From Austropuccinia psidii (lineage: Eukaryota; Basidiomycota; Pucciniomycetes; Pucciniales; Sphaerophragmiaceae): a stretch of DNA of 64,000 bases. Positions 37,739 to 59,112 of this stretch are shown here, in pieces; within the stretch, counting starts at the first letter, position 1; each line of letters starts with the position of its first letter. The notes under the pieces are model-generated. The model saw nothing but the letters and a program-made list of their open reading frames with translations. It made no database searches and had not been told where the DNA came from. Made by a program: the position numbers and the translations under genes. The stretch is taken from NCBI GenBank assembly GCA_023105745.1, contig JALGQZ010000017.1, forward strand, positions 1,088,001-1,152,000, in the 5' to 3' direction.

Positions 37739-37784
37739 CACCAGGGCAAATCTTGCGTCAATCGTCGGCGATTGACTTCACGTC
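37739..37784 (+). repeat. Left terminal inverted repeat of the inner transposon
   Basis: About 46 bp, starting CACCAGGGCAAATC. It contains an internal dyad GTCAATCG-(4)-CGATTGAC and ends TTCACGTC. It matches the complement of 59067-59112 with a handful of differences. Confidence 0.92.
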
Positions 37785-38084
37785 GCACCGCGGTCAGTAT
37801 AAAATCTTGCTTCAGTCTCGTTAGTGTCACTTTATAGTCACTGGATTTAGTGGGTCACGTCACGTCAGCGTCAAGACAACGTCAATCGTCACATGTGTCA
37901 CATGAGAATGTCACTCAAAGCCCAAACCCGTTTCAGCACTATTCGCAACGTTTGGGTAATTTCACCTAATAGCTTCTGCCTCCCCAACGCTTAGCATGCT
38001 TACGCGCCCGCACCACCCTCCAGATGAGACTCTGACACTGCCTGCCCCCCCATCTCCGTCCTCACCACTCCTTACGCTTTCACA
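37785..38084. other. Left subterminal region with CGTCA/TGACG motifs
   Basis: It contains clustered CACGTCACGTCAGCGTCA and GACAACGTCAATCGTCAC motifs, also found in inverted form at the right end (58970-59060). No gene. This kind of terminus-proximal motif cluster is where CACTA DNA-binding proteins act in plants. Confidence 0.55.
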
Positions 38085-38521
38085 CCCCCACCCTTACCAT
38101 CCTTACGCTTGTGTAGTGCCCTCCCGACATACTCCCGACACTGGTTACAATCCTTACGCTCGCGCAGTGCCCTCCTGACATGCTCCCGACGCTGCTTACG
38201 ATCATTATGCTCGCGCAGTGCCCTCCCGACATACTCCCGACACTGCTTACGATCCTTACGCTCGCGGAGTGCCCTCCCGACATGCTCCCGACACTGCTTA
38301 CAATCCTTACGCTCATGAAGTGCCCTCCCGACATACTCCCGACACTGCTTACAATCCTTACGCTCATGAAGTGCCCTCCCGACATACTCCCGACACTGCT
38401 CACCATCCTTACGCTCATGAAGTGCCCTCCCGACATGCTCCCGACACTGCTTACGATCCTTACGCTTGCCTAGTAGGTACCCTCCCGACATGCCTCCGAC
38501 CCCGCTTACCATCCTTACGCT
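38085..38521. repeat. Left subterminal tandem array, 51-bp unit
   Basis: About eight head-to-tail units: CTCCCGACATACTCCCGACA, a CTGCTTACAATCCTTACGCTC segment, then GTGCC. Both strands are open in several frames only because of the repetition. Confidence 0.92.
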
Positions 38522-38538
38522 TCCGTACTACATCCATA

Positions 38539-38564
38539 GTGTACGGTGGCTTGTTGGCGTACAC
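38539..38564. promoter_or_regulatory. Recurrent palindrome, site 1 (inner copy)
   Basis: GTGTACGGTGGC ... TTGGCGTACAC, between the left array and gene A, about 460 bp upstream of its ATG. Less perfect at the centre than the other sites. Confidence 0.75.
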
Positions 38565-38742
38565 AAAGGACGCCATCGCCGAAATATGCTGAGTGGCCTT
38601 CTCTGCCAACAGGACCTCAGGGGAAATTGGTCAGTATATTCACAATGTTGTGGTTAGGGTTTAAATCATGAGACTCGCAAATTAAAACCTAATAAGTGGA
38701 CTATTTAAGACAAGAATTGTGTCTCCTTTTTCGCCGACAAAA

Positions 38743-55089: not shown

Positions 55090-58000
55090 ATGACAACCCG
55101 GCCCTATTCCTCAAAGCGTATATGCATGTGTCAACACTGCTCAACTCAAACACACTCTTCCCCTGAGGGTGATAGGCAAGGAGTTGCCTTCACACCTTTC
55201 CAATATAAACAGCACATTAAAAAGCTCAAATCAACCCTTGCACCCAAATCTCTTCCAAACATCCCTACTTCTGCATCAGGATCTGGGTGCCCACAAATTC
55301 TATTGGATCAAATCTTCCCAGCTGATTATTCACGTTTGACCCAAAGCACTTTCCCAACTGCAGCGGCTCTCAATTCAACTGCACAGAAACCATATAGTGG
55401 CAGCCAAACCCTTCCCCCACAAGACCTAGGAATGATAATATCTGCCATTCTATCATTAAGGTATAATTTACCCCGCAGGGCTTCACGCATACTCAACCCC
55501 GCCCTGAACCTGCTGATCAAGTCCAGTATCTCAAGCTCAGCTGGTCCCCCCGCTCCTGCATTCCATATACCTCAAGATCTGAGTACCATATTTGAACATC
55601 TCCAATTGGAGCCAGTGATTCAAAACTATATATGTTGTCCTCAATGTTTCTCTCTTAATGGCCTTAGTGAATCAGTCACAACTGACCAACCCCACTGTCA
55701 ACGCCATAATGACCCAAATGATCATGATCCCCCTTGCACACAATCATTAGGCAAATTCATCTATTCATCTGAACCCCACACCCAAAACACAACCAACATG
55801 AAGCAAAAATTTATACCAAAAAAACATTTCATTTATCAACCATTCAAAAATTGGCTTGCCAGATTTCTCCAGCGGGCTGGAATTATGGACATTCTGCATC
55901 AACATCAACAATCCCAAACTCCCGAAGATTCCCCAAAACGTGACGTCTGGGATGGATTGGTCTGGAGACGCTTCACTGGCACTAGAAATATCCATGACCC
56001 CCCATTCATGTCCATTCCTGGTGCATTGGCCTTCTCCATATATGTGGACTGGTTTAATGCACATGGAAAGTCAACCCGGTTGGCTAGCATTGGACCTATC
56101 ATGCTTATTTGTCTTAATCTCCCCCCAAGTGAAAGATTGAAGCCCGAGAATGTCTATGTTGCAGGAATCATCCCTGGTCCGAAGGAGCCAACTGCGCTTC
56201 AATTGAATTATCTATTAATGCCACTCATCAATGAGCTCAAAGAGCTATGGCAGGGTTACCATTTTGCACCCACCTCAACAGGTCCATCAGGATCCTTTAT
56301 CCGTGTTGCCATCCTCACAGCCATTGCGGATGTGGTTGCCATGCGCAAGCTTACTGGATTTATTTCCCATTCAGGAAACCACTTTTGTAATTTTTGCACC
56401 ATTCACAAAGCTCAAATTGAAGAAATTGGTCCTCAATTTCACTACACGCGCTCATACCAAAGTCATAAATCAACCATTGCCAAATGGCTTCGGGCAACCC
56501 CACAACAAAGACAAGCAATTTTCTCTGAGTATGGAGTGCGATATTCAATTTTGGAAGACCTTCCGTATTGGGATGCAACCAGAATGGTTAATCTTGACAT
56601 AATGCATAATTTAATACTTGGAATTTTGAAGGATCATGCAACTTTCAAATTGTGCATTCCAGAGGCGAAATCAAAAATTTACTTCAGGTCCCGCAGGAAA
56701 TCCAATGACACCAACAGTTCAGACTCAGATTCCAAGACCTCCAACAGCTCTCTTGATAAAATCACATTGAGAGAGGCCCGCTCCCTGAGAAGAGACGCAG
56801 CAAAAATAATAAATGAGCCACTCCCCACTACTTCCACCCGAAAAAACTACTTCCCAATGCCCACCCCTAACACAGAACATCCATCTAGTGGTTCTGCGGA
56901 GATTCCTTCATTTGATGCCGATTACATCCCCACTTCTGAAATACCCTCTGAATTGGATATCACTGCACTGAGTGATCACCAGATCAAGGGTGAGGCTCTT
57001 GAGCATCTCCGACAAATCATATCTGAGACCATAATTCCCTCATCATGGACAAGGGTTCCCCGCAAAATGGGTTCCCCCTCTCATGGTAGCTTAAAAGCCG
57101 CTGAATGGGCTCTCTTATATAAGGTCTATATTCCATTTCTAATGCTCAGTCAACAGATGTCATTAGATGCACACCAATCTGCCAACACTCAAAGAAAAAT
57201 GGGTCAGTCAGAAGAACTTGCAAATGAACTAGCCAAGAATACATTCCATTTGATTAGTGCTATCAACATTGCCACAAGCTGGACTGTTTCAATAGATGAT
57301 GCGACTGCATTTGCTGAACATTGGAAAAAATTCCGCCTTTCCAATCAACACCTGTTCCCAAAACAGAAAAGTAAACCAAATCATCATTTTGCTGATCATA
57401 TTCCCGAACTCTTCCAACGTTGGGGCCCAGCACAAGCCTCAGCCACATGGGGTTATGAGCGCTTGATTGGAGTATTTGCAAAGATGCCAACAAATAACAA
57501 GATATGTACGTCAATTAATAAGATCAATATATTCACATTGATGAAACACCTGAACTGAATAAGACTAACTTTTTGCAACTCTGAATAGATGATATAGATA
57601 AAACCTTACTTCAACATATCTGTCGATGTTCCAACCTTTCCGTTCTCCTGAAATCCCCATCTGTGCCATGTGAAATAAAACAGCTTTTCGAATCACAGCC
57701 ACCTGCCGTGTTCAATCACCCTAAATATAACAAGCCATCCCGCCATGACCAACAAAATTATGCTTGCCTGGTTGAGTACTTACAGAATTTTCATTCCACA
57801 AGGGAAGTAGTTGATTGGATCAGCTTAGACACTACCATGCAATCCACAAGTCCTCCCACTTCAAGGATTGTCTCACCTTGGTATTTTCCAGTTTCAAACA
57901 TTAATATTGGGAACAATATATTTTCAACTGAATCCAAAAATATCAGCAACAGTGTGATATGTTTTCTGAGAGGCAACTCACGACAATTTGGTATTATTGA

Positions 58001-58250
58001 TAGCATTTTCAAAGTCTCTGAGCCATCTAGCATACTGAATAATAACTTTCTGAGTTTAAAAAATTTGAAGATTGATGTGAATTTCCTACCAGATTGGCCG
58101 TATCTCAATATTTATAAAGCTGTTGGTTTTGATGATGGACACTTGATTATATCAGAAGAAGAAATAGAAGGTAACTGTGGATTGTATGATAACAAAGCTC
58201 TGTCATGTGGACTGCTTGTAATGATAAAGCCGTTATTTCATGATATTTAG
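55090..58250 (+). CDS. Tnp2-type (CACTA/Plavaka-like) transposase, intact
   Basis: Exon 1 (55090-57505) and exon 2 (57589-58250) are joined by an 83-nt GTACGT...TAG intron in phase and give 1025 residues. Near the N-terminus are CxxC-type zinc-ribbon pairs (CMCQHC, then CCPQCF with further Cys/His). The Tnp2 core follows: DVWDGLVWRRF (about 284), a segment equivalent to the usual plant NPFG region (DWFNAHGKSTRLASIGPI), VAGIIPGPKEP (about 360), FCNFC, the YWDATRMVNLDIMHNLILG motif near 490-510, and WGYERLIGVFAKMPTN near 788. Catalytic acids cannot be assigned with certainty by eye. The enzyme would cut at the CACC termini. It is the last gene before the right array. No break is seen, so the inner copy may be mobile or mobilise others. 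Confidence 0.93.
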
Positions 58251-58508
58251 TCTACAAAAATGCAAATCTCTCAGATTCATTAGCAATTTTGCTAGTGAAA
58301 TAATTGCCTCAAAATTTAGTGACAGAGACATGCCATTGTGACAAGCAAAGCCCATTATTTCACATTTCCACAAAGAACTTACTATTTTGACATTGGGTAC
58401 AGTGTGAATAAGCCAAGTCCAATGATCAAATGACCCACACACTCACCTTTCATAGCATCCAAAATTTCTAACTGCGCCATCATCATGTTGGAAGCGGAAT
58501 CGGCTTTT

Positions 58509-58784
58509 GCGTACCCACACCCGCATGTGCACCCGCACGCGCCAATGCACACGCCCACGCACCCGCACACGCCAATGCACACGCACACCCACCCGCACAC
58601 GCCAATGCACACGCAAACCCACCCGCACACGCCCACCCACCCGCACCCGCACACGCCAATGCACACGCAAACCCACCCGCACACGCCAATGCACACGCAA
58701 ACGCGCCCGCACACGCCAATGCACACGCAAACGCCAATGCACACGCAAACGCGCCCGCACACGCCAATGCACACGCACACTTCA
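58509..58784. repeat. Right subterminal tandem array, 30-bp unit
   Basis: Units CACACGCCAATGCACACGCA followed by AACCCACCCG, about nine copies with length variants. Reading frames through it give only His-Thr-Pro or Arg-Thr repeats. From 58251 to 58508 lies the untranslated tail of the transposase. Confidence 0.93.
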
Positions 58785-59066
58785 TGGATGACCTGGTGAA
58801 GTCAAACCCCCCGCCTACATGAAAACTGGCTGAAGGACATCTTTGATGTGTGTGTGTGCAAACAGGCGGGTCTGGTGTAATTTTTACCAATCATCGGACG
58901 GTTGTGGGATGATCAGGTGGTGAGGAATCTGAGTTGAAGGCACAGGGGAACCAATATTATTGGATGTCACAGGATTTGGTGTAAGACCAGAGTGTGACGT
59001 GTGCTTGACGTTCGCTTGATTTTCGCTTGATGTGAGCTCGACTTTTATCCTGCTTGACGTTTGCTT
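58785..59066. other. Right subterminal region with TGACG motifs
   Basis: Non-coding. From 58932 it contains TGCTTGACGT-type repeats (GTGTGACGTGTGCTTGACG, GCTTGACGTTTGCTTGACG), the inverted counterpart of the left CGTCA cluster. Bases 58932-59112 recur, CpG-depleted, at 61055-61235. Confidence 0.65.
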
Positions 59067-59112
59067 GACGTGAAGTCAATCGCCGACGATTGACACGAGA
59101 TTCGCCCCGGTG
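59067..59112 (-). repeat. Right terminal inverted repeat of the inner transposon
   Basis: It ends CGCCCCGGTG, the complement of CACCGGGGCG. It has the same internal GTCAATCG/CGATTGAC dyad as the left end and is followed by CTT. Confidence 0.92.

Follow-up and report, generated by a model that had tools for sequence, protein, structure and literature searches.

We analysed a 64,000-nucleotide stretch of the genome of the rust fungus Austropuccinia psidii (1.015 Gb in 84 contigs), positions 1,088,001 to 1,152,000 of contig 17 (C17), hereafter the window, and describe in it a transposon that we call element B. Element B is a complete CACTA/EnSpm-type element with six genes, which encode a DDE transposase, a predicted TET-like dioxygenase, a Rad5-like SNF2 ATPase, a Cys6-pattern protein and the products of two unknown genes (u1 and u2). 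Its termini, CACCAGGG..CCCCGGTG, are of the CAC..GTG type, the literal CACTA being absent, and its inverted repeats agree at 42 of 46 bases, the match breaking down at once beyond 46 bp. The features of the element, in window coordinates, are as follows.

37736..37738, no strand: CTT target duplication, left (direct reading)
37739..59112, + strand: complete element B, 21,374 bp (terminal inverted repeats, CTT duplication, collinear copies)
37739..37784, + strand: left terminal inverted repeat, 46 bp, starting CACCAGGG (42/46 against the right end)
38093..38521, + strand: left subterminal array, 51-bp units, words CTTACGC and CCCGACA (word/unit analysis)
39021..41261, + strand: unknown gene u1, several exons, limits modelled (spliced model from copy C8)
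42190..43182, + strand: TET-like 2-oxoglutarate/Fe(II) dioxygenase, 330 residues, single exon (PF20515, 1.8e-48)
43345..43930, + strand: internal array, 40-bp units, words CTTACGC, CCCGACA and CACACGCCAAT (word/unit analysis)
44349..45729, - strand: gene for a Cys6-pattern, proline-rich protein (CX2CX6CX9CX2CX6C in sequence)
48748..51106, + strand: SNF2-family ATPase, Rad5-like, 723 residues modelled, 4 exons (PF00176, 2.9e-52; PF00271, Helicase_C, 1.2e-15)
51488..54147, - strand: unknown gene u2, modelled (coding behaviour; no Pfam family)
51833..52993, no strand: 581-bp tandem duplication inside u2 (units 100% identical)
55090..58217, + strand: Tnp2-type DDE transposase, main exon 55090-57505, second exon modelled (PF02992, 7.4e-16)
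58513..58790, + strand: right subterminal array, word CACACGCCAAT (word/unit analysis)
59067..59112, - strand: right terminal inverted repeat, ending CCCCGGTG (matches the left end at 42/46)
59113..59115, no strand: CTT target duplication, right (direct reading)

The original prediction, made from the letters of the window alone, had proposed matching inverted repeats, a CTT duplication, the full length, subterminal arrays at both ends, a Tnp2-type transposase, a Tet-like dioxygenase and a SNF2 ATPase, and all of these were recovered, the transposase profile scoring above its cut-off. The word intact calls for caution, this copy being imperfect in u1 and u2. In the transposase, D320, D414, C433xxC436, H766xxxH770 and E790 were invariant among all 10 aligned proteins, the C(2)C and H(3)H signature lying between the second D and the E, and relatives were found in A. 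psidii MF-1 (up to 86%), Phakopsora pachyrhizi (47% over 96%) and Puccinia graminis (42% over 95%). A DDE transposase with C(2)C and H(3-4)H motifs, a 3-bp target duplication, CAC..GTG ends and subterminal repeats, the last present at both ends but with differing words at each, place B in the EnSpm/CACTA superfamily. The Kyakuja, Dileera and Zisupton (KDZ) elements resemble it in being fungal DNA transposons that bear TET/JBP genes, an association reportedly described by Iyer et al. in 2014. Membership of the KDZ class was rejected: B has a 3-bp duplication and a Tnp2-type transposase, whereas KDZ duplications measure 7 or 8 bp (PMC12730594), and a Pfam search with the transposase gave no KDZ profile up to E 1. 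Plavaka elements share the C(2)C and H(3-4)H motifs, and the transposase gave a weak Plavaka profile score (25.1 bits, below the cut-off of 26.3), but their ends read TGT..ACA or CATCA..TGATG (PMC12730594), unlike the CACCAGGG..CCCCGGTG of B, and this membership was likewise rejected.

The cargo genes were modelled with a simple length-maximising splicing script, whose introns stepping over stops in TET (copies C5 and C8) and whose odd models of u1 and u2 in B were discarded. The TET frame is open in B and includes the HxD motif (HVD), of which H207 is conserved in at least 90% of 33 aligned sequences, the D at 209 falling below that class. Profile and motif together point to an enzyme of the TET/JBP type, for which base oxidation is predicted. 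It was 96% identical over 88% to the A. psidii MF-1 protein P0056, and the 120 homologues listed, of 237, were all from A. psidii, while single-sequence and profile comparisons with solved structures gave no match up to E 1. Predicted structures were too poor to use, with a predicted local distance difference test score (pLDDT) of 35 for TET and 52 for a piece of u2. The SNF2 model possesses both ATPase lobes, and its nearest solved chain is RAD5 (1.9e-52), with no match over RAD5 655-767, between the lobes; the designation Rad5-like is therefore taken from the best solved relative, not from a subfamily tree. The sole match to its N-terminal 212 residues, neurofibromin at E of about 0.2, was not accepted as real. 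As for the predicted Cys6 regulator, the literal spacing is present and a Pfam Zn_clus match is not, so the assignment stands as a pattern only. The Cys6 gene has a GC content of 0.546 and a CpG observed/expected ratio of 0.91, unlike the other genes of B, and may be a later acquisition or common to other repeats. Neither u1 nor u2 matched a Pfam family above cut-off (for u2, none up to E 0.1), and the 120 homologues of u2 listed, of 181, were again all from A. psidii. The u1 exon at 39581-40290 differs in length between B and five of eight other copies in ways that change the frame. The 581-bp unit in u2 is single in copy A, an older copy described below, and in seven fetched copies, and its duplication in B is either a recent event or an assembly error.

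Our word and unit analysis revealed three arrays, the words of the two outer ones recurring in the internal one. The left and right subterminal arrays share no 8-mer in the same orientation and two in opposite orientation, and the internal array, situated between the 3' ends of the TET and Cys6 genes, combines all three words of the end arrays. The unit consensus of the left array shares seven 8-mers with that of the internal array, against 0.08 expected from Markov shuffles (0 of 2,000 reached 7), and the internal and right consensuses share four, against 0.12 expected (0.0045 by the same shuffles). Within B, every CTTACGC and CACACGCCAAT is confined to the left, internal and right regions and lies on the + strand throughout; CCCGACA occurs twice more outside the arrays, on the other strand. 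Both CTTACGC and CACACGCCAAT were present in the internal array of all nine copies compared, and CCCGACA was frequent there in six of the nine, with 0-1 occurrences in A, C18 and C12. These words are putative binding sites for a protein of the element.

Genome searches placed B in a large family whose members, where probed inside, carry the same cargo in the same order. A 62-bp left-end query brought up 1,814 candidates at first look. Scoring covered 40 of them: 19 were exact, the window included, and 21 stood at 98%. All 19 exact loci were followed, over differing sequence lengths, and a right end was found for 12. Among the others, the match in C18 stops inside the element; C6 contains a 9.25-kb long terminal repeat (LTR) element and extends past the fetched stretch, in which no right end was seen; L015 runs off its probe window; L017 (C3:68917536) departs from the sequence of B inside; and L006, L012 and L019 gave no right-end match within a 1.6-kb probe. 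With a 73-bp right-end query, each of the 40 matches scored was exact, and five of the 21 left ends at 98% could be paired with one of them, on contigs C1 and C2, spanning 20,682-20,922 bp in four cases and 30,966 bp in the fifth; the both-ended count is made without the other 16. Exact 3-bp duplications flank 16 of the 17 both-ended copies, L016 (GTA/ATA) differing by one base, and the 20-bp left flanks of 30 loci were all different. Interior probing covered 12 both-ended copies, the five C1/C2 pairs standing outside it, and the TET and SNF2 genes were collinear in all 12, B included. The fetched both-ended copies C16, C12, C8 and C5 match the map of B along their whole length, the only departures being insertions in C16, differing array lengths and the duplication peculiar to B. 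In seven further both-ended copies with exact left ends, probed at the expected sites, TET, SNF2, Cys6 and u2 were each found in 7/7 and u1 in 6/6 tested; their right-end windows reach the modelled second exon of the transposase in six, in three of these by less than 70 bp only.

At the scale of the genome, the 46-base end pattern with at most 3 mismatches had 1,137 + 1,161 = 2,298 matches and its reversed control had 0, because of which chance is excluded. A 46-base TET word occurred 1,254 + 1,312 = 2,566 times (control 0), so that full-length copies would make up at most about 5% of the genome if each TET word stood for one such copy, an arithmetic upper bound. On contig C1, an exact TET word lay 15.8-16.1 kb inside 14 of the 30 listed exact right ends and 4.4-5.2 kb inside 12 of 27 left ends with at most 1 mismatch, compared with 0.00065 for random places in the left-end test; these shares may in truth be higher, because only exact TET words were listed. 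The earlier expectations that other copies would end at these termini, that the cargo would lie inside them and that the locus was no chance cluster were all borne out, the last by collinear copies at differing flanks as well as by the end counts. It is close to certain, in our judgement, that the six genes move as one unit.

The immediate surroundings of B record one of its jumps. Self-BLAST revealed that B is inserted inside an older, inverted and diverged copy of its own family, copy A (83-94% by segment), whose remains are the following.

59113..61052, - strand: left part of copy A including its left end, split off by B (86.8% to B 37739-39610)
19895..37738, - strand: remainder of copy A (self-BLAST; right end not found)
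61055..61235, + strand: right-end fragment of a further family member (89% to B 58932-59107; third nesting layer)

Copy A has its left end at 61052, extends to 59113, resumes at about 37740 and continues down to about 19.9 kb, where a right end was looked for and none was recognisable; its left end abuts the right-end fragment of the third family member. When the flanks of B are joined across a single CTT, all 120 of 120 bases align gap-free, inside u1, to B itself and to seven of seven other copies (95.8-99.2%), which constitutes an empty site. The second, diverged copy with shared gene order that had been predicted is real, and it surrounds the element, a point that the original prediction missed: copy A is the sequence that B jumped into. 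Next to the site of the missing right end, at 18678-19463, lies a diverged tandem repeat whose period is about 255 bp.

Selection was assessed from ratios of nonsynonymous to synonymous substitution (dN/dS) among nine copies (36 pairs), or six copies (15 pairs) for the transposase. The ratios were 0.30 for u1 (three exon stretches), 0.37 for Cys6, 0.43 for SNF2, 0.29 for u2, 0.61 for TET, and 0.44 and 0.66 for the main and second exons of the transposase. Read out of frame, the same stretches gave 0.71-1.50, and as a further control each of two intergenic stretches was read in three frames, with values of 0.66-1.11. Because of these controls, purifying selection is clear for five genes (u1, Cys6, SNF2, u2 and the transposase) and weak for TET; u1 and u2 behave as coding, as had been supposed. 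Changes were also assigned to a tree of the copies by parsimony, an analysis based on small counts and given without a significance test. Normalised nonsynonymous-to-synonymous ratios on internal and terminal branches, respectively, were 0.19 and 0.34 for u1, 0.52 and 0.68 for TET, 0.36 and 0.48 for Cys6, 0.35 and 0.49 for SNF2, 0.33 and 0.47 for u2, and 0.36 and 0.77 for the transposase, the internal value being the lower in all six genes, and stop changes numbered 3 on internal and 24 on terminal branches. This is the pattern expected if the jumping lineage needs the genes while single copies decay.

The CpG content of the family was also distinctive. The observed/expected ratio was 0.64 in B, 0.53 in the main part of A and 0.61-0.64 across some 20 kb of four other copies. 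Pooling the first 1.5 kb of 29 copies gave 0.96, with 0.20 in their flanks. Two LTR elements gave 0.19 and 0.16; the first is a young retrotransposon in the window (2959-13357, LTRs at 2959-3727 and 12589-13357), the second a relative of it inserted in copy C6, and the LTRs are 99.87% identical in each. The family has kept CpG where two young LTR elements did not, and the source of this retention could lie in source copies only, in constraint on the ends or in a different history.

We interpret B as an autonomous EnSpm/CACTA cut-and-paste transposon whose five selected cargo genes serve as an anti-silencing self-help module, and assign this reading a probability of roughly 0.55. Its transposase would act on the 46-bp ends and create the 3-bp duplications, as the structure, the copies and the empty site support, and the five further genes would travel as fixed parts of the element, with selection clear for four of them and weak for TET. 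A DNA-binding protein of the element, for which the Cys6-pattern protein, u1 and u2 are candidates, may recognise the words in the end and internal arrays; the Rad5-like SNF2 motor may open chromatin there; and the TET-like enzyme could oxidise methylated bases, making the element expressible and its ends accessible for transposition. The directed anti-silencing role of the cargo, taken by itself, falls just short of an even chance. Going further, one might picture an addressed epigenetic-eraser machine, in which a TET oxidase and a SNF2 motor are guided to a three-array word code, the left and right codes joined internally, and which let one CACTA family with a tendency toward self-insertion disperse TET across one genome in thousands of copies, many broken; we consider this extended picture doubtful. 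In maize, TnpA of the Spm element is an anti-silencing factor of its own family. We know of no base-oxidising enzyme in plant anti-silencing transposons, which differ from B in their unrelated proteins and plant hosts. The principle proposed here, namely element-encoded, sequence-specific anti-silencing of the own family, is described for the plant Vandal MuDR elements in PMC12730594. Also counting in favour of our reading are the CpG retained by the family, the words that the internal array has in common with the end arrays, and the higher 5mCpG ratios of young transposon families in A. psidii (PMC12774611).

Several observations weigh against it. Of the six genes, TET is under the weakest constraint, its ratio of 0.61 being barely below the lowest intergenic control of 0.66, with which the second exon of the transposase is level, and its frame is open without frameshift in five of nine copies (B, C18, C12, C6 and C3), the rest having stops or a frameshift. 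The SNF2 protein resembles Rad5, a repair protein, and the Cys6 protein fails the Pfam Zn_clus profile (E 0.12; 12.9 bits against a cut-off of 21). The CpG ratio is uneven within B, at 1.03 and 1.08 at the ends and 0.37 in the transposase gene. CpG transitions between family copies run at 6.5-17.7 times the rate of other transitions, and the comparison of A with B (0.182 to 0.0238) is matched by that of a local LTR retrotransposon pair (0.189 to 0.0233). Because this ratio equals that of the LTR pair at equal divergence, TET affords its copies no visible protection from CpG decay, and any single copy is apparently methylated and erodes as other transposons do; the simple idea that TET shields its copies from CpG mutation is unsupported, though the CpG content is high.

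This equality of decay, no slower in the family of B than in the LTR family, would also be expected if the oxidised bases made by TET served as a mark for regulation or transposition, or if TET acted on adenine, instead of unmethylated cytosine being restored. In Coprinopsis, oxidised methylcytosine occurs around Kyakuja elements, and the fungal CcTET also oxidises N6-methyladenine (PMC12730594). We nevertheless consider such a mark unlikely, as the CpG content of the element lies far above that of the two young LTR elements, which erasure would explain too. Rather improbable is the view that the cargo genes are passengers from the host or from other transposons, with no role for the element. 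TET genes are reported to move passively between transposon superfamilies of rusts (PMC12730594), and the deviating composition of the Cys6 region fits such an origin. Because the TET ratio adjoins the lowest intergenic control, we raised the standing of this explanation and lowered our confidence in the anti-silencing module and in the extended picture of an eraser machine. Set against the passenger view are the purifying selection seen clearly in the four remaining cargo genes, stronger on internal branches in each, and the collinearity of the cargo in the both-ended copies probed. That the nest and the high copy number come from misassembled repeats is very improbable and was rejected; the perfectly identical 581-bp duplication, absent from A and seven fetched copies, could hint at it, but 16 of 17 sites lie on many contigs with differing flanks and matching duplications, and the empty site is flush. 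That the genes cluster by chance, or that unrelated insertions are stacked between matching ends, is scarcely credible and is refuted by the collinear copies, for although there is nesting here, with B inside A and A next to a third end fragment, and about 89% of the A. psidii genome is repeats (PMC12774611), order and spacing stay constant across insertions with differing flanks and matching 3-bp duplications, with ends 20.7-20.9 kb apart in four of the five C1/C2 pairs and 31.0 kb in the fifth.

The distinct giant Tnp2-class element with a conserved cargo that the original prediction had announced was borne out, and its general kind proved to be already published. According to PMC12730594 (Kojima 2025, December 2025), rust transposons of seven superfamilies carry TET genes; one of the seven is EnSpm, whose elements in Puccinia striiformis have CAC..GTG ends and make 3-bp duplications. 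The paper proposes that transposon TET genes help rust elements to evade methylation, and it notes related EnSpm families in A. psidii, its main text being silent on TET carriage there. The likeness extends to an EnSpm transposase with weak Plavaka similarity, CAC..GTG ends, the 3-bp duplication, a TET gene and a rust host, and a TET/JBP gene lies within the ends of all 12 both-ended copies of our family examined inside. The differences lie in the six-gene cargo, the arrays, the copy number and the selection analysis, none of which features for EnSpm in the main text of PMC12730594, where SNF2 has 0 occurrences; its Table S1 may list the family of B. Because that paper reports the type, with no SNF2 in its text, we count the family as a variant of the TET-carrying rust EnSpm elements, and a fresh one unless the supplement of PMC12730594 already lists it. 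The literature searched yielded no further report of a fungal CACTA element that combines TET and SNF2, nor did it contain SNF2 and further selected genes in a TET-carrying EnSpm element, the present scale, or an internal array uniting both end codes. Enlarged En/Spm elements of the red alga Chondrus crispus (16-20 kb, 4-5 open reading frames) are likewise oversized CACTA elements with several frames; they differ in their non-fungal host, and the relevant passage of PMC6431247 mentions no TET or SNF2.

The family offers a concrete test object for the idea that TET genes counter methylation, with thousands of TET words, copies of differing ages and both open and broken frames, to which are added published 5-methylcytosine data for this genome and, as a control from the window itself, an LTR family. 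The retention by selection of a chromatin motor and further genes in the element suggests that TET does not act alone. The family may also help to explain why CACTA elements are so abundant in A. psidii, where they rank second among the transposon classes (PMC12774611).

Insertion into the own family was not confined to B. Of 30 left flanks (L001-L030), eight abut sequence of the same family, six of them at 90% identity or more, in a count that leaves out L009, whose match ends 13 bp short; about 1.5 of 30 would be expected, given a family share of about 5% of the genome. The family may prefer, or tolerate, self-insertion, and we treat the excess as a lead rather than a result because fragments lacking the TET word would raise the family share. 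Four of the eight self-insertions lie in or near u1, and copy C12 (L007) sits in an older family member of about 76% identity, some 76 bp from the site equivalent to that of B in A.

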